Shown here: positions 20,174 to 29,374 of the stretch, piece after piece
Numbering within the stretch: position 1 is the stretch's first letter
Layout: every line of letters starts with the position of its first letter
Origin: a virus
Direction: 5' to 3' (one strand)
DNA: 31,768 bases
IMG/VR virus record: IMGVR_UViG_3300036770_003530
Span: 1-31,768 of that record
Position numbers and translations under genes: made by a program
The notes under the pieces: model-generated
The model's database searches: none
The model's input: only the letters and a program-made list of their open reading frames with translations
Told to the model about the DNA's origin: nothing

Positions 20174-20616
20174 CTAATTTCGGATCTTCCGGATCCTAAA
20201 TCTCGTTTATTCATTCGACGTAGATCGGGATCGGCTTGTTCTTGTTCGAAATGCTGTAGTACAACATTTCGGCAAACTTCCTGAAACCACCGATCCACAA
20301 TAACATCTTCTGTTTCGTTGGCCCGAAATTGATAACCTGCTCTAACCAGATTAGCTATGAATTTATCATTCCAATCAAGTTCAAATGCACCTGAACCAAT
20401 GTTTTCTGGATCTAATTCAACTGAAATAATATTAACATAAGGTTCGCCACGTTCAGTGGCGAGTTCCTTGGCAGTTTTCTTAGGCGCAGATTTAGGTTTA
20501 CGTTTGGTAGGATGCTTTGGCTTTTCGTCAACCTTGGATTGTGAAATTAAAGCACCATGTTCGAGTCCTTGTGCACTGGTGTGCAGTACCTTTCGTAAAC
20601 GATCTAAAAAACCCAT
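20170..20616 (-). CDS. Conserved T4-like phage protein (148 aa), function unknown
   Basis: Begins MGFLDRLRKVLHTS, then a Lys/Pro-rich basic segment (about residues 30-55), then a domain with EPYVNIISVELDPENIGSGA, FELDWND.F...L..AGY and the VD.WF...CR pattern, which I recognise from T4-like cyanophages without a known function. The start is at ATG 20616, whose A is the last base of the queE stop (TAATG); an upstream in-frame ATG lies inside queE and is less likely. Linked by coupling to queE and upstream of the exonuclease. Confidence 0.78.
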   Translation of the reverse strand: MGFLDRLRKVLHTSAQGLEHGALISQSKVDEKPKHPTKRKPKSAPKKTAKELATERGEPYVNIISVELDPENIGSGAFELDWNDKFIANLVRAGYQFRANETEDVIVDRWFQEVCRNVVLQHFEQEQADPDLRRMNKRDLGSGRSEIS

Positions 20617-21461
20617 TAGGTGCCCCACTCGTTCTTAAATAACGGCACCTGAAGTCTGTCACTGTATCGTAAGCCATGCTTCATACATGCCAGTGCCACG
20701 TTCTTGTTGTTTAAGCTGTATACACTTTCGACGCCGCCTACAGGCATGAGGTATACTTCTCCGGTGAAACCTGCATCTCTAAACTCAATCGTAGCACGTA
20801 AAGCATCTTGAATATCTTGTTCTGTAGCTACCACAAATTTAAGATAAGCCCACCCTATTTGTTGATACTGGCACACTATGTCAGGTTTGATAGCATCTTC
20901 CCAACGCTCACCACTGGCAGGTAATTTCGCACTAATGGAGAAGGTAATTTCTCTATCTGCGCGATTAGACCACAGTTCTAAATAGAACTTGAAATCTTCT
21001 GTAAGACGTTGAGTACCATTTGTCTCAAATGTGATTTCTTTAAGATCAACCATAAACTCATGTTCCAACAGCTCAGGAAATGCTCTTTGCCAACCTAGTA
21101 GTGGTTCACCACCTGTGATGACCAAGTGTTCTCTCATCCACCTTTTGTAGGGTAAGAGTTCTTTAATGCGTTCAACGATCGCCTCTGTTGTAAGTAACGG
21201 TGAAAGGTCCTTGAACCTAGGATCCCAACTAGCGTAACTATCACAACCGGTACTAACAAGTGGAAGATCTCTATACTGCTTAAACTCTGTAATACGATCT
21301 GCAACTTGGTTTCGTTCATTTGATTTTTCTCCTCGTGGCATTCCAAAACCGTCACAAGTAAAATTACAACCGAATGTTCTTAGGAACACACTGGGCACCC
21401 CCATATATCGGCCTTCTCCTTGTACGCTATAGAATAACTCACTGATCTTGATTTTGCTCAT
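20616..21461 (-). CDS. queE: 7-carboxy-7-deazaguanine synthase QueE (radical SAM)
   Basis: QueE rearranges 6-carboxy-5,6,7,8-tetrahydropterin to 7-carboxy-7-deazaguanine (CDG), using SAM and a [4Fe-4S] cluster. The family hallmark S.QGEG...G.P..F.R..GCN is present at residues 12-33 and GGEP at 117-120. The cluster cysteines are unusual: C32 and C36 (GCNFTCDGFGMPRG), but the third candidate, C73 (STGCDSYASWD), comes after a 36-residue insertion, unlike the usual CX3CX2C. At 281 aa it is longer than E. coli QueE (223 aa), partly because of this insertion. ATG 21461 was chosen over an upstream TTG; it overlaps the previous gene by 23 nt and has a weak GGA ribosome site. It belongs to the deazaguanine cluster with folE, queD, yhhQ and dpdA. 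Confidence 0.92.
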   Translation of the reverse strand: MSKIKISELFYSVQGEGRYMGVPSVFLRTFGCNFTCDGFGMPRGEKSNERNQVADRITEFKQYRDLPLVSTGCDSYASWDPRFKDLSPLLTTEAIVERIKELLPYKRWMREHLVITGGEPLLGWQRAFPELLEHEFMVDLKEITFETNGTQRLTEDFKFYLELWSNRADREITFSISAKLPASGERWEDAIKPDIVCQYQQIGWAYLKFVVATEQDIQDALRATIEFRDAGFTGEVYLMPVGGVESVYSLNNKNVALACMKHGLRYSDRLQVPLFKNEWGT

Positions 21462-21657
21462 CTTTGATTCCAAAATGATTGATAATGTATGACCCGGGTG
21501 TAAACGCCGGGTACTGGTAATTCATAACTGGACTATGATTTACCGCACGAGCACATTCTAGCACAACTAGTTCAATAAGTCTACGAGTACGCTCGGGTTC
21601 GTATGTTCGACTAAACCCGGCTTGTGCTATAAGTTGTTGAGCAAGTTCGTTATTCAT
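21439..21657 (-). CDS. Small phage protein of the 'QLI.QAGF...RLIELVVLECA' type (72 aa)
   Basis: ELAQQLIAQAGF followed by ERTRRLIELVVLECAR is a pattern seen in many short phage proteins of unknown function. The remainder is NYQYPAFTPGSY and a short acidic tail. ATG 21657 lies within the last codons of the upstream gene (ATGAATAA overlap), and the end overlaps the queE start by 23 nt. No catalytic motif. Confidence 0.75.
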   Translation of the reverse strand: MNNELAQQLIAQAGFSRTYEPERTRRLIELVVLECARAVNHSPVMNYQYPAFTPGSYIINHFGIKDEQNQDQ

Positions 21658-21862
21658 TTTTGAAATAATGCTCTAGTACTTCTAACTTATCATGGTACTC
21701 GCTGATGTGTGCTAATTCTGCTTCAATAGCTGACATAATATCAGTGTGTTCAGGTATAGCAATAGGATTATCCAACATTACTTCAACATTGGTTACATGT
21801 TTAGTAATATGGCTTTTAAGGTGATCTCTTGTGGCTTCTAATAATCGTTTACGCATTTTCAT
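21650..21862 (-). CDS. Small helical phage protein (70 aa), function unknown
   Basis: MKMRKRLLEATRDHLKSHIT then NVE.MLDNPIAIPEHTD, and a second helix with IEAELAHISEYHDKLEVLEH. I associate this N.E.L..NP...H..........E.EL....EY.DKLE pattern with T4-like cyanophages. The start is either ATG 21862 or ATG 21856, both inside the end of the MazG gene, with no clear ribosome site, so translation is coupled. Probably a coiled-coil dimer. Confidence 0.72.
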   Translation of the reverse strand: MKMRKRLLEATRDHLKSHITKHVTNVEVMLDNPIAIPEHTDIMSAIEAELAHISEYHDKLEVLEHYFKNE

Positions 21863-22127
21863 ATATATTTGACCATTGTTTAAGTTTTTGTTTCTTGGCG
21901 GCTGTGGCAGCAAACAAGTTCTCTTGGCGTACCACACCTTGCTCTACTAGAATATCAATCATGGCAAGTACATCACCGATTTCAGTTTCTAGGTGCTCTG
22001 CATTGGTAGCAGGTTTTCCTGGTTTGAAGTTGTCTAACCCAAACCGAAAGCATTTGCTAACGGCTTGGGTAACTTCGGCACATTCCTCTTGTAGAATAAG
22101 CAGTGTTTCTCTAACTCGATTATCCAT
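21849..22127 (-). CDS. MazG-like nucleotide pyrophosphohydrolase (92 aa)
   Basis: Single MazG-type helical domain with the metal-binding EEXXE (LQEECAEVTQA, residues 12-22) and a second ExxD (ETEIGDVLAM, about 48-57). Family members hydrolyse (d)NTPs or alarmones to monophosphates and pyrophosphate; phage MazG proteins are proposed to alter host nucleotide or (p)ppGpp pools. A house-cleaning role for nucleotides is possible here given the base-modification cluster, but that is inference. It overlaps yhhQ by 8 nt upstream and the next small gene by 14 nt. Confidence 0.85.
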   Translation of the reverse strand: MDNRVRETLLILQEECAEVTQAVSKCFRFGLDNFKPGKPATNAEHLETEIGDVLAMIDILVEQGVVRQENLFAATAAKKQKLKQWSNIYENA

Positions 22128-22746
22128 TGGCTGTTTCTTGTTGAGCTAATTTTTGTTGAAGATGATTTAGTAATAACCCATACGCTGGTAAGATTACTAA
22201 TAAGCTAACGATGACTTTACTGATTGAGTTATTGGTAGCAACAATGTGCCAGTTAGCGGCCATGAACTCATTTTCTCCTCCGGCAAATGCTGTGAAGAAG
22301 AATACATAAGTATCAAGGAATGTGCTCACAACAGAACTCAATGCTGGTGCGATCCACCATGTGCTGTATTTCTCACGGAAATATTGAAACACATAGACAT
22401 CAAGTAGGTTACTAACAAAGTAAGCCATACCAGAACCCAATCCAATCCTAAACGCAACTGAATCAGGAGCACCGCCAGCTTTAACCACAGCCATACTAAC
22501 TAAAATAGCAGGAATAAATGCCAAGGCAATTACAGCTCGCCCAGTTTCTTTACCCAACAGTCGTACAGTAAGGTCAGTTAGAACTACCACCAGTGGAAAG
22601 GTAAACGCTGCTGCTGCCAATGGCGCACCAAACACTGTGAACTTGAATTGAACAATGTAATTGCTAATAGCAATAATAATGATGTGTAAGAGCATTAATT
22701 TATAGGCTAATCCTCTATCAACACCTGCTAACATACGATCTAACAT
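22120..22746 (-). CDS. yhhQ: YhhQ/QPTR-family queuosine-precursor transporter (208 aa)
   Basis: Integral membrane protein with about six hydrophobic segments (roughly 14-33, 40-62, 70-90, 103-120, 128-155, 170-192). It belongs to the YhhQ (DUF165, queuosine precursor transporter) family by the N-terminal SNYIVQFK segment, the PLVVVLTDL..R..GK(E)..R pattern and the conserved AYFVSNLLDVYVFQ...KY....WW....LSS..S...DT..F signature. E. coli YhhQ imports preQ0 and preQ1. Finding it between queD and queE suggests that the phage scavenges deazaguanine as well as making it, or moves a pathway intermediate. AAGGA lies 7 nt before ATG 22746. It is separated from queD by a homing endonuclease gene. Confidence 0.9.
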   Translation of the reverse strand: MLDRMLAGVDRGLAYKLMLLHIIIIAISNYIVQFKFTVFGAPLAAAAFTFPLVVVLTDLTVRLLGKETGRAVIALAFIPAILVSMAVVKAGGAPDSVAFRIGLGSGMAYFVSNLLDVYVFQYFREKYSTWWIAPALSSVVSTFLDTYVFFFTAFAGGENEFMAANWHIVATNNSISKVIVSLLVILPAYGLLLNHLQQKLAQQETANG

Positions 22747-22764
22747 GATTTATCCTTATATAAG

Positions 22765-23628
22765 TTAATCAATATAATAAAACTCTTTAATATTAGGGTT
22801 TTTCAATTTCGAATATAATTTATATTCTGATATACCTAATTCTAGCATAGCCTGCTTTAGTGTGTCAAATTCTTTTCCTTCTGCAATAATTTTTCTAGCC
22901 CTTCCATTTTCTTTTCCGGTGCATTTACCTTTTCTACCTTTACTACTATTCTCGAAAACTTCTTTTTTCTTTTCTTCAGACCAATTCGATCTTGTCATGG
23001 CTGCTTTTTGTCTTGCCAAGGCGTCAGTTTCTGGATTTCGATTCTCTGCCGCTTTTCGTGCAGCTTCTTTCCTGCGATCTAAACCCATACGCTCTTTACC
23101 TAACCGAGCACTACGCTTTCTATCTTCTGGGTCACGAGCTTTTGTTCCTTCAATCATTCTTGGAACATTATTTCGTAATTTTTCCTTTAATTTTTGTCCT
23201 TCCTCAGTTTGATACCATTCTTTAGTTTTACTATGAACATTATCTAATAATGCCTTTTTTTCTTCTTTGGTCCTATTAGCCCATACTTGCTTGATTTGGT
23301 TGCTGAACTCCTGTCGGCGTTCGTTGGTCCATCCGGCTTTAGTGTCTCCACCTATAACATCTTTAGCAACATTATAGTAGTCATCGGAATAATAGGCATT
23401 TACTTTATCTAAATAAAACTTTTCACGCTCTAAAAGATATTGTCTATCTTCTACTTCCACATACTCAATAATAGTTCTTGTGAAGTTCGTAATACCGTGC
23501 TTTTTAATAGCCCGTTGAAAAACTTTACCTGAACCAATATATCCATCGTCTATTGTACCGGTGTGAGAACCAATATACTTTTTGCCATTAAGTATATTGG
23601 TCCATTCGTAAACAAATCCATAATACAT
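22765..23628 (-). CDS. GIY-YIG homing endonuclease, free-standing (287 aa)
   Basis: The N-terminal GIY-YIG nuclease domain (about residues 1-100) shows GFVYEWTNILNGKKYIGSH for the GIY..YIG motif, a basic/aromatic KKHGI.NF segment, and E71 in the LEREKFYLD helix. The middle is very Lys/Arg/Glu-rich with repeated NUMOD3-like basic patches, and the C-terminus (ARKIIAEGKEFDTLKQAMLE) looks like a NUMOD/IENR1 DNA-recognition helix. Such SegA-like enzymes of T4 phages cut neighbouring alleles and spread by repair. The gene interrupts the queD-yhhQ order. Its ribosome site and start codon lie in a hairpin with a perfect TATAAATA late promoter. Confidence 0.92.
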   Translation of the reverse strand: MYYGFVYEWTNILNGKKYIGSHTGTIDDGYIGSGKVFQRAIKKHGITNFTRTIIEYVEVEDRQYLLEREKFYLDKVNAYYSDDYYNVAKDVIGGDTKAGWTNERRQEFSNQIKQVWANRTKEEKKALLDNVHSKTKEWYQTEEGQKLKEKLRNNVPRMIEGTKARDPEDRKRSARLGKERMGLDRRKEAARKAAENRNPETDALARQKAAMTRSNWSEEKKKEVFENSSKGRKGKCTGKENGRARKIIAEGKEFDTLKQAMLELGISEYKLYSKLKNPNIKEFYYID

Positions 23629-23666: not shown

Positions 23667-24182
23667 CTATTCAAAACCCTCAAATAAATCTTCTCCCCAT
23701 TCTCTATGACCTTCTCTAAAAGCCATATTGGCTTGAGTTTCTCTTACTTCTACTCGATAACACCATAAGCGATTGTGCTCGCCCAGTCCCCACATGTCTG
23801 GGATATAAATGGCATTGACATATTTGTATAGCATGTCTGCTAAACTCTCGCATCCTAATTTAGGAAGAATAGTAAGTTTAGCCATTTTCTTTTCTTGAAG
23901 AAGTTTATATATTTCGAGTTCAGGGTCATCGGAACTAACTAGTAAACAATGATCGAACTTATCTTCTAATAACTTTTTAAGTTCTTTTAGGCCACCATAA
24001 TCGGCAGCCCAGTTACGTACATCTAAGTCGTTGGTGCCAAAGTAAAACTTCATTGAAAAACTATATCCATGTATCATGTTGCAGTGACTATCTGCTCGCC
24101 ACTGTCGATACGCACATGGAAACGCATCGTGGTACTCTTTGGTGCTAGTGTACTTGTACACTTGTGGTTCAAACTTTGTCAT
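23667..24182 (-). CDS. queD: QueD: 6-carboxy-tetrahydropterin synthase (phage-type), 171 aa
   Basis: T-fold enzyme converting dihydroneopterin triphosphate to 6-carboxy-5,6,7,8-tetrahydropterin, the QueE substrate. Recognisable elements are FPCAYRQWRADSHC...HGYSF (residues 21-42), D...RNW..DYG.LK.LK, FDHCLL (76-81), the CES..DMLY segment (111-119) and the C-terminal VEVRET glutamate. Catalytic C34, D77, H78 and the late Glu are kept. The zinc site is odd: by alignment with QueD (F.AAH ... C...HGH), the first and third zinc histidines are Y25 and Y40, and only H38 is retained; H33 or H18 might compensate. Start at ATG 24182, with GGGAGG 6 nt before it; an upstream ATG gives a leader without homology. 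Longer than E. coli QueD (121 aa). Confidence 0.87.
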   Translation of the reverse strand: MTKFEPQVYKYTSTKEYHDAFPCAYRQWRADSHCNMIHGYSFSMKFYFGTNDLDVRNWAADYGGLKELKKLLEDKFDHCLLVSSDDPELEIYKLLQEKKMAKLTILPKLGCESLADMLYKYVNAIYIPDMWGLGEHNRLWCYRVEVRETQANMAFREGHREWGEDLFEGFE

Positions 24183-24261
24183 CTCTTGCCTCCCTGTTTT
24201 GAGTAAGTTTGATGACATGCAGAATTTCTATAGCGGGGTGAATGTCAAGGCCGCTTACTAC

Positions 24262-24546
24262 TTAAACGGTCTTCATGTGCTCGCGCAGCCGATCCCAGTC
24301 AATATCCAGGCTGACTTTACCGTCGTGATCTACAGTGCGTACACTGTAGTTGCCAACGTGTACACCAGGTTCCTCGGGCTTGACATCAAACAACTCGGTC
24401 TTGACCTTAGCGGGTTTCTTAGGCTTTGGTGCTGTTTTTTGTACCTTTTCCGCAGTTTTTTTAGAGACTGCGCCGTTGTCCTTAGGATAGTCAGCTTTGG
24501 TTGGTTTTTTGTCCGCTGGCTTAGCAGCAGGTTTCTTAGTTGCCAT
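24262..24546 (-). CDS. Lys/Pro/Ala-rich basic protein (94 aa), function unknown
   Basis: Residues 1-48 are almost only Lys, Ala, Pro, Thr and Asp (MATKKPAAKPADKKPTK), like histone-H1-type tails, followed by a compact acidic end with GVHVGNYSVRTVDHDGKVSL and DIDWDRLREHMK. The tail suggests nucleic-acid binding. ATG 24546 overlaps the folE stop (TAATG), with AAAGGA 8 nt upstream, so it is co-translated with folE. Not a recognisable enzyme; its link to the deazaguanine pathway is by position only. Confidence 0.7.
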   Translation of the reverse strand: MATKKPAAKPADKKPTKADYPKDNGAVSKKTAEKVQKTAPKPKKPAKVKTELFDVKPEEPGVHVGNYSVRTVDHDGKVSLDIDWDRLREHMKTV

Positions 24547-25292
24547 TATCCATGTCCTTTCATTGATAAGCAAATGTCGTAAAACTCTTTCTTTAATGCT
24601 GGATCAGTTTGGAACGCACCTAACATGATTGCTGTAGTCATATCCGACTCATGCTCACGTACTCCACGCATGGTCATACAGTGATGTTCAGCTTTCACGA
24701 CGACGGCAATATTTTCGGTCCGAGCATAGTCGCGGAGTGCAGATGCAATCTGAGTTGTCATCTCCTCCTGGATCTGGGGTCTCTCGCAGATGTGATGTAC
24801 GAGCCTGTTGAATTTGCTCAAACCAATTACTTCTTCTTCGGGCACTATCCCCACCCAGCATCGTCCAACGATATTTTGAAAATGGTGAGCGCATGTTGAT
24901 CTTATACTGATTGGTCCTGTGGTATAAAGGCTTTTATAGCCCATGTTGGGAAATGCTGTGACTTTGGGAACGCTGCGATAGCGTCCACTAAAGGTCTCGC
25001 GTACAAACATCTTAGCTACACGCCTTGCAGTGTCTTGCGTGTTATGATCATTAACAGTGTCGATTACTAAACTATTTAGTACACCCTGAAATTGACCAGC
25101 AACCTCATCTACTAAGCGATCAATTTCGTCGTCGCTTTCGATGAATTCTGCAATGTTGTCGTTTGAGTGGAATCTGGCTCCTGCGTTACGAATCCGTTCA
25201 CGAATAACTTCGCTCATGGGTCTTCCAAACACTGCACCTTCATAGCCAGGATGGTAAGGTGCTTGTTCTACTAGTTGTTGATATTGATTCAT
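24546..25292 (-). CDS. folE: GTP cyclohydrolase I FolE
   Basis: Catalyses GTP to 7,8-dihydroneopterin triphosphate, the first step shared by folate and 7-deazaguanine synthesis. The T-fold core has the zinc site C134 in STCAHHF (132-138), H137, and C205 in HHCM (203-206). Also present are VGRCWVGIVP, the VIGLSKFNR(L)VHHICERPQIQE signature (155-176), and MTMRGV. The length of 248 aa is close to the family norm (about 220). QueF is excluded because its E(S)K..K pattern is missing while the FolE zinc triad is complete. A GGAG precedes ATG 25292. The leader carries a small hairpin and a sigma70-like promoter. Confidence 0.95.
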   Translation of the reverse strand: MNQYQQLVEQAPYHPGYEGAVFGRPMSEVIRERIRNAGARFHSNDNIAEFIESDDEIDRLVDEVAGQFQGVLNSLVIDTVNDHNTQDTARRVAKMFVRETFSGRYRSVPKVTAFPNMGYKSLYTTGPISIRSTCAHHFQNIVGRCWVGIVPEEEVIGLSKFNRLVHHICERPQIQEEMTTQIASALRDYARTENIAVVVKAEHHCMTMRGVREHESDMTTAIMLGAFQTDPALKKEFYDICLSMKGHG

Positions 25293-25336: not shown

Positions 25337-25365
25337 AGTGTAATGTATTTAGACGGTTTTGTCAA
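25337..25365 (-). promoter_or_regulatory. Sigma70-like promoter of folE with late-type CTAAATA in the spacer
   Basis: TTGACA (25365-25360), 17-nt spacer, TACACT (25342-25337). CTAAATA (25352-25346) is inside the spacer. The -35 box overlaps the galE stop codon. The -10 box and following bases (TTACACTTACAC) are also found upstream of the gene at 31736. Confidence 0.55.
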
Positions 25366-26351
25366 TCGTTATAATATGTTTTTTTCATCCAGTTAAATGT
25401 GGTACTGGCAATATCAGCAATACTGCTATGCTTAGGTTTCCAGCCAGTGTCTTGCATAAACCTGCGTGGGTCTGCATATAATTGGTCCGGGTCTCCTGCA
25501 CGTCTCGGGCCATAACGCCAATTTAATCTAGTTCCTGCATATGCGGCCACTTGTTCTAGAACTTCCTTGTTACTTAGTCCATGTCCTGTGCCTAAATTAT
25601 AACTACGATGTTCACCAGGTTGCAACCCTGCTGCTAAACATACTGCTTCTAAATGAGCGTCGGCTAGATCCGATACATGAATATAGTCACGTATACAAGT
25701 ACCATCTCTAGTGTCATAATCATTACCATTGATAACAATTTCTTCGCCGCTTAATGTACTATTAACCACTCGGGTTACTAAGTGAGTTCCATCCTTTACG
25801 CAACCCATACCGCCTTCAGGATCACAGCCGGCGGCATTGAAATACCGCAGACTAATACCACGGAATCCATGTGCTGAACAGTGATCGGCAATCACACGCT
25901 CAGTCATTAACTTTGACCAACCATATGGATTGATCGGAGTTGACTTATAAGCAGCAGATTCACTGATTGGGCATATAGCACTGTCACCGTAGACAGCAGC
26001 ACTGCTACTGAATATGATGCTGCCTGACCAACCTCGATCCGCTAACCAATTCAGCATACGATTGGTTTTGGCAGTGTTATTATTGTAGTATTCGCCGGGA
26101 TTTTTTAGACTAGGCCCCACCAGACTGGTACCTGCACAATGAATCACTGCATCGGCTTCGCGTAGCGGAGCACAGTAATCTACTATGTCCACAAAGTCTG
26201 TACAGAGAAACTCATCAAGGTGATCTACAGCAGCAGGAATAGTGATTTGTCTATCTACTCCAATTACCGTATATCCTGCTTGTTTGAAACGTAAGGCAGT
26301 GTGTCCGCCTACATAACCAGCGGCACCTGTTATAACAATTGTTTTTGACAT
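25362..26351 (-). CDS. galE: UDP-glucose 4-epimerase GalE (329 aa)
   Basis: Interconverts UDP-glucose and UDP-galactose. The extended SDR fold starts with NAD-binding GAAGYVGG (9-16). The catalytic site has SSSAAVYG (115-122) and the Y143-K147 pair in YGWSK. NAAGCDPEG, TRDGTCIRDYIHVSDLADAH and YNLGTG are GalE hallmarks. Length is typical. GGAGG lies 5 nt before ATG 26351, immediately after a small hairpin. In a phage it could feed UDP-sugar to the glycosyltransferase encoded two genes upstream. Whether the sugar goes to DNA, virion protein or host surface cannot be told from the sequence. Confidence 0.95.
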   Translation of the reverse strand: MSKTIVITGAAGYVGGHTALRFKQAGYTVIGVDRQITIPAAVDHLDEFLCTDFVDIVDYCAPLREADAVIHCAGTSLVGPSLKNPGEYYNNNTAKTNRMLNWLADRGWSGSIIFSSSAAVYGDSAICPISESAAYKSTPINPYGWSKLMTERVIADHCSAHGFRGISLRYFNAAGCDPEGGMGCVKDGTHLVTRVVNSTLSGEEIVINGNDYDTRDGTCIRDYIHVSDLADAHLEAVCLAAGLQPGEHRSYNLGTGHGLSNKEVLEQVAAYAGTRLNWRYGPRRAGDPDQLYADPRRFMQDTGWKPKHSSIADIASTTFNWMKKTYYND

Positions 26352-26731: not shown

Positions 26732-27922
26732 CTAATATTTAGCTGGTGCTAAGTGTTTTCTGTAGTCTCGGGTCATACGCAGCATGGATTCGCCGCGTCC
26801 TTCTAAGATGTCACAGATACGATCAATAGTGCCATCGTTATAGTCACTGATCCGGCCTATGTTCTTGTGCGGATGACGCAGTAAGGGAATTAACTTTTGC
26901 ACAGCATCATCTAGACTCCAAGGTACATAAAGTCGTTCATGATCATTGGCAAAAGTTTCAGGAAAGCTGCGGTAAGCAGGATACAGAACATTAGCTCCAA
27001 GTGTATCGGCTTCACTGACTGTGTTTGACACCCAATCTTGTAAAGCACAATTAAAAAGAACCCTAGTATCATTAAGTAGATCATAGTAGTCATTCTTTTC
27101 TAAGTCCTCATAAATGACCAGTTTACCTTCTGCTTGTAACTTCCTAGTACGTTCCATATAACTAGAGTTATTACTACGCAGTTTTGCACCAGAAAACACA
27201 GCAAATTCTACCCATGGCAAATAATCTAAGCTATCAGCTAAACTGTGATAGTGTTCAATCAAGTCCATATAAAAGTCGGGCTGTTTTTCTTGATCCCAAC
27301 GTGCAGCAAAGCCTACTCTAAACGCACGATCTTCAAATGGTTTGAGTGGTCCTAGTACACGACCTCTGACTTCGTTCTTACCAAATGCCAAACCGGAAAT
27401 ATTGTAGATTGGAGCACTCCAACCTGCAATTTTCATATGTGCTACCATTTCTTCATTAGTGGCCAGCACACCTGTAACAAAGGAATTAACCATGTGCTCA
27501 TAACAAGCCATCCAGCCTTCCATGTTCCAAACATGAACGAAATCATCAGGGTCAATGGCTTGTGCAAGGCAACGGACAAATATCCTAGGACGATGAGCGG
27601 CATCAACTTGATCGAGAATGTAAGGTAAGCTCTCGATGCCTGGTTGAAAAAGGTCTTCAAAGTAGATAACATCCTCATTGGTCACTGCTCCTGCTTTCAT
27701 TAACTTGACCAGATTCATCATCTGGCTCATGCCAAAGTAACTTCTACCATGTGCGTCAAGTACTTGTCCTGTTACAATGGCTTGATCATTACTAAGAGTT
27801 TCTCCCTCTACTATGTAGTAATTGATCCCTCTACGCTCAAACACCGAGCGATTCCACTCTTGTAGTTGGTAAGTGTATCTAGCACGATACTTTTCCAACC
27901 CCATATAAAATAATCTTCTCAT
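26732..27922 (-). CDS. GT-B type glycosyltransferase-like protein (396 aa)
   Basis: Probably a GT-B fold glycosyltransferase (GT4-like). The C-terminal half opens with VGFAARWDQEKQPDF (about residues 205-220). A donor-site-like segment (about 284-332) reads RVLFNCALQDWVSNTVSEAD, then LGANVLYPAYRSFPE, matching the E.(L)..G...P....(F)PE pattern of GT4 enzymes. The N-terminal half carries W..(M)..FV.GVLA.NEEM, the usual acceptor-domain helix. Acceptor unknown. Start chosen at ATG 27922, whose ATGA overlaps the stop of the HNH gene; a TTG at 27928 with AGGA is also possible. It lies in the deazaguanine cluster with galE. Confidence 0.75.
   Translation of the reverse strand: MRRLFYMGLEKYRARYTYQLQEWNRSVFERRGINYYIVEGETLSNDQAIVTGQVLDAHGRSYFGMSQMMNLVKLMKAGAVTNEDVIYFEDLFQPGIESLPYILDQVDAAHRPRIFVRCLAQAIDPDDFVHVWNMEGWMACYEHMVNSFVTGVLATNEEMVAHMKIAGWSAPIYNISGLAFGKNEVRGRVLGPLKPFEDRAFRVGFAARWDQEKQPDFYMDLIEHYHSLADSLDYLPWVEFAVFSGAKLRSNNSSYMERTRKLQAEGKLVIYEDLEKNDYYDLLNDTRVLFNCALQDWVSNTVSEADTLGANVLYPAYRSFPETFANDHERLYVPWSLDDAVQKLIPLLRHPHKNIGRISDYNDGTIDRICDILEGRGESMLRMTRDYRKHLAPAKY
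26736..26742 (-). promoter_or_regulatory. Late-type motif CTAAATA before the His-rich protein gene
   Basis: CTAAATA in the palindromic GCTAAATATTAGC, about 22 nt before the start codon and overlapping the end of the glycosyltransferase gene. Member of the boundary-located NTAAATA set. Confidence 0.4.
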
Positions 27923-28626
27923 GTACAATATTTTCCTAATAATTGATCCACAGTAATCTCACTTTTATAACTTTTCATACGATTAAGTTTACCAGAAATG
28001 ATTCTAAGATTGTGTATACTACCCATTATTTCAGGTTTGACTTTATAAGCGAAACCTTCTACGATTGATAATATATGATCTAGATGATTGTGTCTATCTC
28101 TTATTTGACCTTTCATCATAGTCCGGTAAGTTCTATTTGAAAATTTCCAAACTTCTCTACGATAGTTTTCATAATCTGATTTAAGTTTTGGATCTCCAAC
28201 TTGACCTCGAATAAGTTTAGTTTTTTGTTGACGATCAGTTCTACAATCTAAGCAACCTAAATGTCCTTGTGCGACAGAGTACGGTACAGAAATAAATGTT
28301 TGATTATGAATCGAACAGAAAAACTCTAAATTAGTTTTAGAATTCTTGTATTCACCTTTATATGATATGTGGGGAAACTGTTGAATAATCTCTTGCCTAA
28401 ATTCAGTATCAGTTTTGTCCCACGAATTATTACATTTAGGGCATCCACCTCTACCTCTTTTCATGTCGTTGGGATACTTTGAAAAATACCCGTGAATTTT
28501 ACATCCTAAAGTAATCTTGGTATTACAATTGACATAGGTAAATTTATCATATATAAGATCGGGGTGATGCTCTTTAATTTCAAGTAGTACTATTTCAGTC
28601 GTTTTTCCATGTGTTCTACCCGGCAT
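27919..28626 (-). CDS. HNH-type homing endonuclease with zinc-ribbon repeats (235 aa)
   Basis: The N-terminal part has two related zinc-ribbon-like modules, each C.IH......F....G..GC..C (about residues 39-65 and 99-123), as in DUF723-containing nucleases. The C-terminal HNH-like domain has H..LDHI.SI..G...K..PEIMGSIHNLRIIS...N..K (about 174-212), with the usual DH and N..(R) residues. Free-standing homing endonucleases of this kind are common in phages. ATG 28626 is preferred to an upstream TTG because AAGGAG sits 8 nt before it. It is inserted between the 76-aa gene and the glycosyltransferase gene, overlapping the latter as ATGA. The ribosome site is paired in a strong leader hairpin. Confidence 0.88.
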   Translation of the reverse strand: MPGRTHGKTTEIVLLEIKEHHPDLIYDKFTYVNCNTKITLGCKIHGYFSKYPNDMKRGRGGCPKCNNSWDKTDTEFRQEIIQQFPHISYKGEYKNSKTNLEFFCSIHNQTFISVPYSVAQGHLGCLDCRTDRQQKTKLIRGQVGDPKLKSDYENYRREVWKFSNRTYRTMMKGQIRDRHNHLDHILSIVEGFAYKVKPEIMGSIHNLRIISGKLNRMKSYKSEITVDQLLGKYCT

Positions 28627-28629
28627 ATG

Positions 28630-28671
28630 CAAATCTCCTTGTAATTATTTATGACTACAAGGAGATATTTG
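28630..28671 (-). promoter_or_regulatory. Leader hairpin hiding the HNH ribosome site, with late-type CATAAATA in the loop
   Basis: On the - strand CAAATATCTCCTTGTA (28671-28656) pairs with TACAAGGAGATTTG (28643-28630), 14 bp with a 2-nt bulge. The Shine-Dalgarno AAGGAG is fully paired. CATAAATA (28653-28646) occupies the loop. A start 6 nt later would fall at about 28640, giving a message without the 5' arm. Same logic as at the GIY-YIG gene. Confidence 0.75.
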
Positions 28672-28927: not shown

Positions 28928-29374
28928 TTATACTGAGATAAGTTGTGGTTGAGATTTAAGATAATAAACAGTGGCACCATTCTCTCCGTCCTCTGCGACA
29001 GTGATTTCGATGTCACGTCCGGGATAACGAGCAGCAATGGCTTCATACAAGTCATCGCTGATCATCTCGCAGCTCTTAAAATTTAATTCAAGAGTGCCAG
29101 TATACAATTTTTCTAGCCAACGCTTAAATTGTATGAATTCGATATCACGATCCGAATGAAATACTTCAATTGAGACTGTGAAGTGAAAAATGTGTCTGTG
29201 TGGTGTTCCTAAAAATGATACATCGTACTCGTCGCCAGTGGCCAAGGCCGGGTCTGTAGCTGCCGCCGGATATTTGTGTATACCTTCCTTGCGAAAGGTA
29301 ACCCAAATCATACGACGAGCACGATCTCTAATACGTTGGCGTGTGTCTGCTAATGCTTGATCTCTTTGTTCCAT
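28928..29374 (-). CDS. T-fold protein, QueD/PTPS paralogue (148 aa), role unknown
   Basis: A second member of the 6-pyruvoyl-tetrahydropterin synthase/QueD fold. The zinc triad is complete: H33 in EGIHKYP, and H59 and H61 in GTPHRHIFHF. After that come the IEVFHSDRDIEFIQFKRWLE helix, SCEMISDDLYEAI (101-113) in place of the usual P.(S/T).E.(L/I) segment, and ITVAEDGENGATV (124-136) at the end of the sheet. However, the catalytic Cys four residues before the first zinc His of the pair is a Leu (L55), and the Asp-His pair of QueD is missing. It therefore probably binds a pterin- or deazaguanine-like ligand but catalyses something other than the QueD reaction. It sits in the dpdA operon. A ribosome site is not obvious. 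Confidence 0.8.
   Translation of the reverse strand: MEQRDQALADTRQRIRDRARRMIWVTFRKEGIHKYPAAATDPALATGDEYDVSFLGTPHRHIFHFTVSIEVFHSDRDIEFIQFKRWLEKLYTGTLELNFKSCEMISDDLYEAIAARYPGRDIEITVAEDGENGATVYYLKSQPQLISV

Follow-up and report, generated by a model that had tools for sequence, protein, structure and literature searches.

The cluster described here raises the question of why a virus should carry, in addition to QueD, a second QueD-like protein of 148 aa (called T in the following), which keeps the zinc positions of the fold and lacks the catalytic residues. The window, which is the whole stretch of viral DNA that was analysed, comprises 31,768 nucleotides. An earlier note on it offered two ideas, namely that QueD and T are complementary subunits, or that T has taken on a different step, for example the conversion of 7-carboxy-7-deazaguanine (CDG). 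Of these we favour the second, a step around CDG, over complementary subunits, and we infer the reaction itself. In a literature search, no assigned step after CDG was found for the phage 7-deazaguanine pathways that lack QueC, and T offers a specific candidate for this post-CDG step that would be simple to assay.

The T gene and its cluster

From Table 1, it can be seen where the genes of the cluster are located; they run in one direction, in the order DpdA-like protein, p168, T, glycosyltransferase-like protein, epimerase, FolE, QueD, YhhQ, MazG-like protein and QueE. Clustering of FolE, QueD, QueE and DpdA with T is also present in relatives. Two homing-endonuclease-like genes (calls made as GIY-YIG-like by inspection and HNH-like by PHROG) break up the cluster of the window.

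Table 1. Positions of the cluster genes within the window, with the evidence or residues that characterise them.
Feature	Coordinates	Strand	Remarks
QueE, 7-carboxy-7-deazaguanine synthase, radical SAM	20616..21473	-	phrog_2076, E 2e-51
MazG-like pyrophosphohydrolase	21849..22127	-	
YhhQ/Vut_1-type transporter (preQ0 or precursor uptake family)	22120..22746	-	PF02592, E 5e-23
Homing-endonuclease-like gene	22765-23628		beside QueD
QueD, 6-carboxytetrahydropterin synthase	23667..24218	-	Tyr37/Tyr52 at two zinc positions; C46, D89, H90 kept
FolE, GTP cyclohydrolase I	24546..25292	-	PF01227, E 4e-46
Nucleotide-sugar epimerase	25362..26351	-	PF01370, E 6e-46; phrog_540; family in 64/184 GT-type T loci
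GT-B glycosyltransferase-like protein	26732..27928	-	pairs with T in loci of the window's type (counts in text)
Homing-endonuclease-like gene	27919-28632		between T and glycosyltransferase
T, QueD-like T-fold paralogue, 148 aa	28928..29374	-	predicted zinc ligands H33/H59/H61, anchor S101-C102-E103 and E128, without catalytic Cys/Asp-His; phrog_17812
p168, 168 aa	29383..29889	-	between DpdA and T; no function assigned; partner in 83/184 GT-bearing T loci
DpdA-like transglycosylase, 510 aa	29870..31402	-	assigned from its motifs and from homologues with the annotation queuine tRNA-ribosyltransferase

The open reading frame of T lies on the minus strand, with its ATG at 29374 and its stop at 28928; an AGGA ribosome-binding motif is present 7 nt 5' of the ATG, and the start is 8 bp past the stop of the preceding p168 gene. 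The sole family match of T was phrog_17812 (E 3e-32), to which no function is assigned, and the Pfam and NCBIfam searches returned no family, including Pfam PTPS and NCBIfam QueD. The family is diverse (65 clusters at 80% identity, 22 at 60%), and it is kept in hundreds of viral contigs together with genes for guanine DNA modification and without QueC. T also occurs in fusions: to an endonuclease VII-like domain in Chryseobacterium phage MA9V-3 (L096:13431-14312), to an unrecognised 262-aa domain in Vibrio phage Bakedbeans (L097:13212-14363) and, going by BFVD entries, to partners that bear the labels AAA and alcohol dehydrogenase N-terminal.

The putative DpdA has an invariant D102-S-G-G-x-Q107 together with DIP, HxLG and FDCxxP motifs, and the TGT-type residues D102-SGG-Q107, G231, H267-x-L269-G270 and D300 are invariant in 14 members. 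Searches of PDB and Pfam with this protein gave no match to a solved TGT or to a Pfam family, and we call it DpdA-like from its motifs and its relatives. QueC was not found in the 31,768-base contig, a result that applies to the contig and not to the genome, since the contig is probably a fragment. The YhhQ/Vut_1 transporter is part of the modification cluster despite the lack of QueC in the window.

Fold and conserved residues of T and QueD

Modelled with AlphaFold2, T gave a T-fold with a mean pLDDT of 94.8, for which the best solved match was E. coli QueD (4ntk), followed by other PTPS (Foldseek probability 1.00, TM up to 0.74 on the target); beyond PTPS/QueD, the solved relatives include QueF-like archaeosine synthase, another enzyme acting on a 7-deazaguanine. 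When the T family profile was compared with all PDB sequences, E. coli QueD again ranked first (E 0.04, full-length alignment), and a profile-profile comparison with phage QueD gave 86-90% probability with the same anchor motifs aligned.

The earlier note had placed H33, H59 and H61 at zinc-binding positions, with Leu in place of the catalytic Cys and the Asp-His pair gone, and the profile alignment bears this out in all three respects. The histidines pair with the zinc histidines H16/H31/H33 of E. coli QueD and are invariant in 100/100 relatives as well as in a diverse alignment of 84 sequences; Leu55, also invariant, sits at Cys27 of QueD, and D70-H71 of QueD falls in a 7-residue deletion of T. 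What that note did not contain is that T retains the base-anchoring residues, S101-C102-E103 corresponding to T84-S85-E86 of QueD and E128 to E110. In PTPS/QueD, the TSE-type motif and the anchor Glu grip the 2-amino-4-oxo ring of the substrate. In the same 100 relatives and 84 diverse sequences, L55, H73, R76, E79, F80, S101, C102, E103 and E128 show no or almost no variation, and R60/H73/R76/E79 are invariants specific to the T family when compared with QueD.

As judged from the modelled fold, the three predicted zinc histidines and the anchor Glu with its TSE-type motif, T belongs to the QueD/PTPS T-fold superfamily, and by the alignment it is not a functional QueD, with both the catalytic Cys and the Asp-His pair missing. 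Since the residues of the metal site and the base pocket are kept and the catalytic residues of QueD are gone, T appears to have lost the QueD chemistry. It would thus represent a pathway enzyme of which a copy was put to use one or two steps further along the same pathway, with the metal and base pocket kept and the chemistry dropped. QueD was present in 22/24 and 22/33 T-bearing records in two samples, and the first of these counts rules out T as a replacement of QueD.

The alignment also confirmed the description of the QueD of the window as having Tyr at two zinc positions and the catalytic Cys, Asp and His kept: Y37, C46, H50, Y52, D89 and H90 (183-aa numbering) align with H16, C27, H31, H33, D70 and H71 of QueD, and the residue numbers used earlier were lower by 12 because they were counted from M13. 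This zinc-poor pattern is a general trait of the phage QueD clade, in most members of which Phe/Tyr and Tyr take the place of two of the three zinc histidines, with C, D, H and the anchor Glu kept. It was found as F/Y-C-H-Y in 32/32 QueD genes from T-less, QueC-bearing loci, and also in phages Iggy, R5C, RHEph05, R7M, phiSM and BcepGomr, in whose whole genomes the T profile had no match. Conversely, a QueD in which none of the three zinc histidines is lost accompanies T in Vibrio phage Bakedbeans, in PA5oct (as its second QueD) and in a contig of a Nitrosarchaeum MAG. As zinc-poor QueD occurs without T and T occurs with canonical QueD, whether QueD has lost its zinc site is a separate matter from whether T is present. 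The phage clade has an extra invariant His adjoining the catalytic Cys. PA5oct (L084) has two differing QueD genes, at 169215-169715 and 171534-171944, of which one is canonical and retains every zinc histidine and the other belongs to the phage clade.

Exclusion between T and canonical QueC, and association of T with a glycosyltransferase

Canonical full-length QueC was found in none of approximately 66 T-bearing records. The phage QueC profile matched in 0/213 T loci, and among 80 loci fetched by diverse QueD, QueC was present in 0/20 with T and in 25/60 without T (Fisher p = 1.8e-4), these counts including many related loci and some contigs that were fetched twice. After clustering by QueD, the exclusion had p = 2e-4 at 90% identity, 0.01 at 80% and 0.08 at 70%, where significance is lost because the clusters mix T-bearing and QueC-bearing members, with no single locus having both. 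In phiST, T is located in a FolE-QueD-QueE cluster, flanked by genes for MazG and a kinase-like protein, and QueC is absent. Three T-bearing jumbo phages (D479, L380 and L381) encode a short divergent PP-loop protein with weak similarity to QueC, so the exclusion concerns canonical QueC only; similar proteins are also found in T-less phages. Such proteins (around 200 aa, with SGGxDS and CxxC) were noticed in L380 and L381, which have T, and in the T-less L383. The mutual exclusion of T and canonical QueC is the genomic context that supports the earlier idea that the paralogue has taken up another step, for instance CDG conversion.

One GT-B glycosyltransferase family is located beside T in about 184/225 T loci and is all but missing from loci that lack T. 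Of 184 loci whose DpdA is of the window's type or a related one, 182 showed this family paired with T in the neighbourhood analysis, although the types of T loci are partly defined by the presence of this glycosyltransferase, so that what is informative is its correlation with DpdA type (149/155 loci of the window's type, 17/17 of a second type and 0/27 of a third) and its absence from QueC-bearing loci (26/26). The two genes are on the same strand in 185/185 loci and at most 1.5 kb apart in 175/185, while the 27 T loci of the third DpdA type have no glycosyltransferase. At the whole-genome level, GT-B was present in 5/11 named T phages (ACP17, Phosso, PA5oct, X1 and BUCT-ZZ01) and absent from phiST, RHph_I1_18, MA9V-3, Bakedbeans, Ahp1 and D479; it was also missing from all 15 QueD phages or contigs tested that lack T. 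Other sugar genes near T in GT-type loci are the epimerase and an RfaE-like nucleotidyltransferase, named by sequence inspection (66/184). Genes for guanine/xanthine phosphoribosyltransferases also recur near T, in 40 GT-type loci and 10 loci of the third DpdA type (e.g., L095:9444-9905), and perhaps recycle the guanine freed by DpdA.

Proposed role of T and comparison with known systems

Since QueC is replaced and FolE, QueD and QueE are kept, and since T has a predicted zinc site and a guanine-like pocket and has no ATP or redox domain, T is best explained as acting on CDG. We suspect, with a probability of roughly one half, that T acts in QueC's place as a zinc-dependent CDG decarboxylase yielding 7-deazaguanine (DG), which would enter DNA by the action of DpdA; loss of CO2 would be the simplest reaction on CDG. 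The phage FolE, QueD and QueE would make CDG, which T would grip through S101-C102-E103 and E128, with the carboxylate held at a zinc on H33/H59/H61 and aided by R60, H73 and R76. The carboxylate would then leave as CO2 to give DG, DpdA would swap guanine in the phage DNA for DG, and a dedicated glycosyltransferase may decorate the base in the window's phage type. T would in this way fill the pathway slot that QueC holds in the preQ0-making phages.

The tight pairing with the glycosyltransferase sits awkwardly with a product that is bare of a side group at C7, and if T does decarboxylate CDG, the sugar would need to be attached directly to carbon 7 or elsewhere. It could instead be that T acts on CDG in QueC's place and gives some other 7-substituted product, which serves as acceptor for the glycosyltransferase and ends as a glycosylated 7-deazaguanine in DNA. 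The linkage of GT-B to T in neighbourhood, strand and distance, its distribution over whole genomes with and without T, and the epimerase and nucleotidyltransferase as common neighbours of T all speak for such a product; however, the 27 T loci without a glycosyltransferase mean that T must be useful without it, and T has no redox or ATP domain, whereas decarboxylation needs no further cofactor. We therefore regard another product as unlikely, if worth bearing in mind.

That T is a binder with no catalysis of its own, which delivers the 7-deazaguanine base to DpdA or acts as a regulator of the pathway, would agree with the loss of the QueD catalytic residues and with a T gene that adjoins DpdA or stands one gene away from it, but invariance of the three zinc ligands and of H73, R76, E79 and C102 across far-diverged members is typical of an active site, and the exclusion with QueC suggests a chemical step, so this seems to us rather improbable. 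As for the proposal that the zinc-poor QueD and T complement each other as subunits of a single hetero-oligomeric 6-carboxytetrahydropterin synthase, the residues missing from the QueD of the window and from T are indeed complementary, and T-fold enzymes act as oligomers with active sites at the interfaces. It was nevertheless not borne out, as the zinc-poor QueD is found in all 32 QueD genes from T-less, QueC-bearing loci and in the phages checked at the whole-genome level, and T also stands beside zinc-complete QueD, and we give it hardly any credence.

Returning to T as an enzyme acting on CDG, the data suggest that GT-type phages glycosylate the base that is made with T, or else that T yields something other than plain DG. 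More broadly, and only tentatively, T and GT-B could be the core of an undescribed DNA hypermodification, in which T converts CDG, DpdA inserts the product and the glycosyltransferase glycosylates it to a sugar-bearing 7-deazaguanine, while phages of the third DpdA type stop at the unglycosylated base. The pairing of T with the glycosyltransferase is new here and may mark such a hypermodification; it predicts a hypermodified, perhaps glycosylated, guanine in ACP17, PA5oct/Paride, X1, Phosso and BUCT-ZZ01, which is checkable by mass spectrometry. A keyword search of the publications on the T-bearing phages MIJ3, Paride and Callisto turned up no data on DNA modification.

Cui et al. in 2023 reportedly described dCDG and dDG in the DNA of phages and proposed, as a prediction, that DpdL decarboxylates CDG. 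The context expected for DpdL, FolE-QueD-QueE-DpdA without QueC, is that of the T loci, and phiST, which we take to be associated with the reported dCDG and dDG, carries T. T is a candidate for DpdL, matched by gene context, and we know of no glycosyltransferase partner described for DpdL.

With QueD (4ntk) and PTPS, T shares the T-fold, the three zinc histidines, the anchor Glu and the TSE-like motif, but it differs in having Leu for the catalytic Cys, the Asp-His pair deleted and its own R60/H73/R76/E79, and it is below the detection of Pfam PTPS. QueC consumes CDG, the product of QueE, in the next step of phage 7-deazaguanine clusters (PMC6884629). T and this 7-cyano-7-deazaguanine synthase would occupy the same pathway slot and were not found in the same locus, although QueC is a PP-loop ATPase with a fold unrelated to that of T. 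The 7-deazaguanine DNA modification systems of phages 9g, CAjan and Iggy consist of FolE, QueD and QueE with a DpdA-type transglycosylase (PMC6884629); these components are common to both, whereas the window has T and not QueC, and in addition GT-B and sugar genes.
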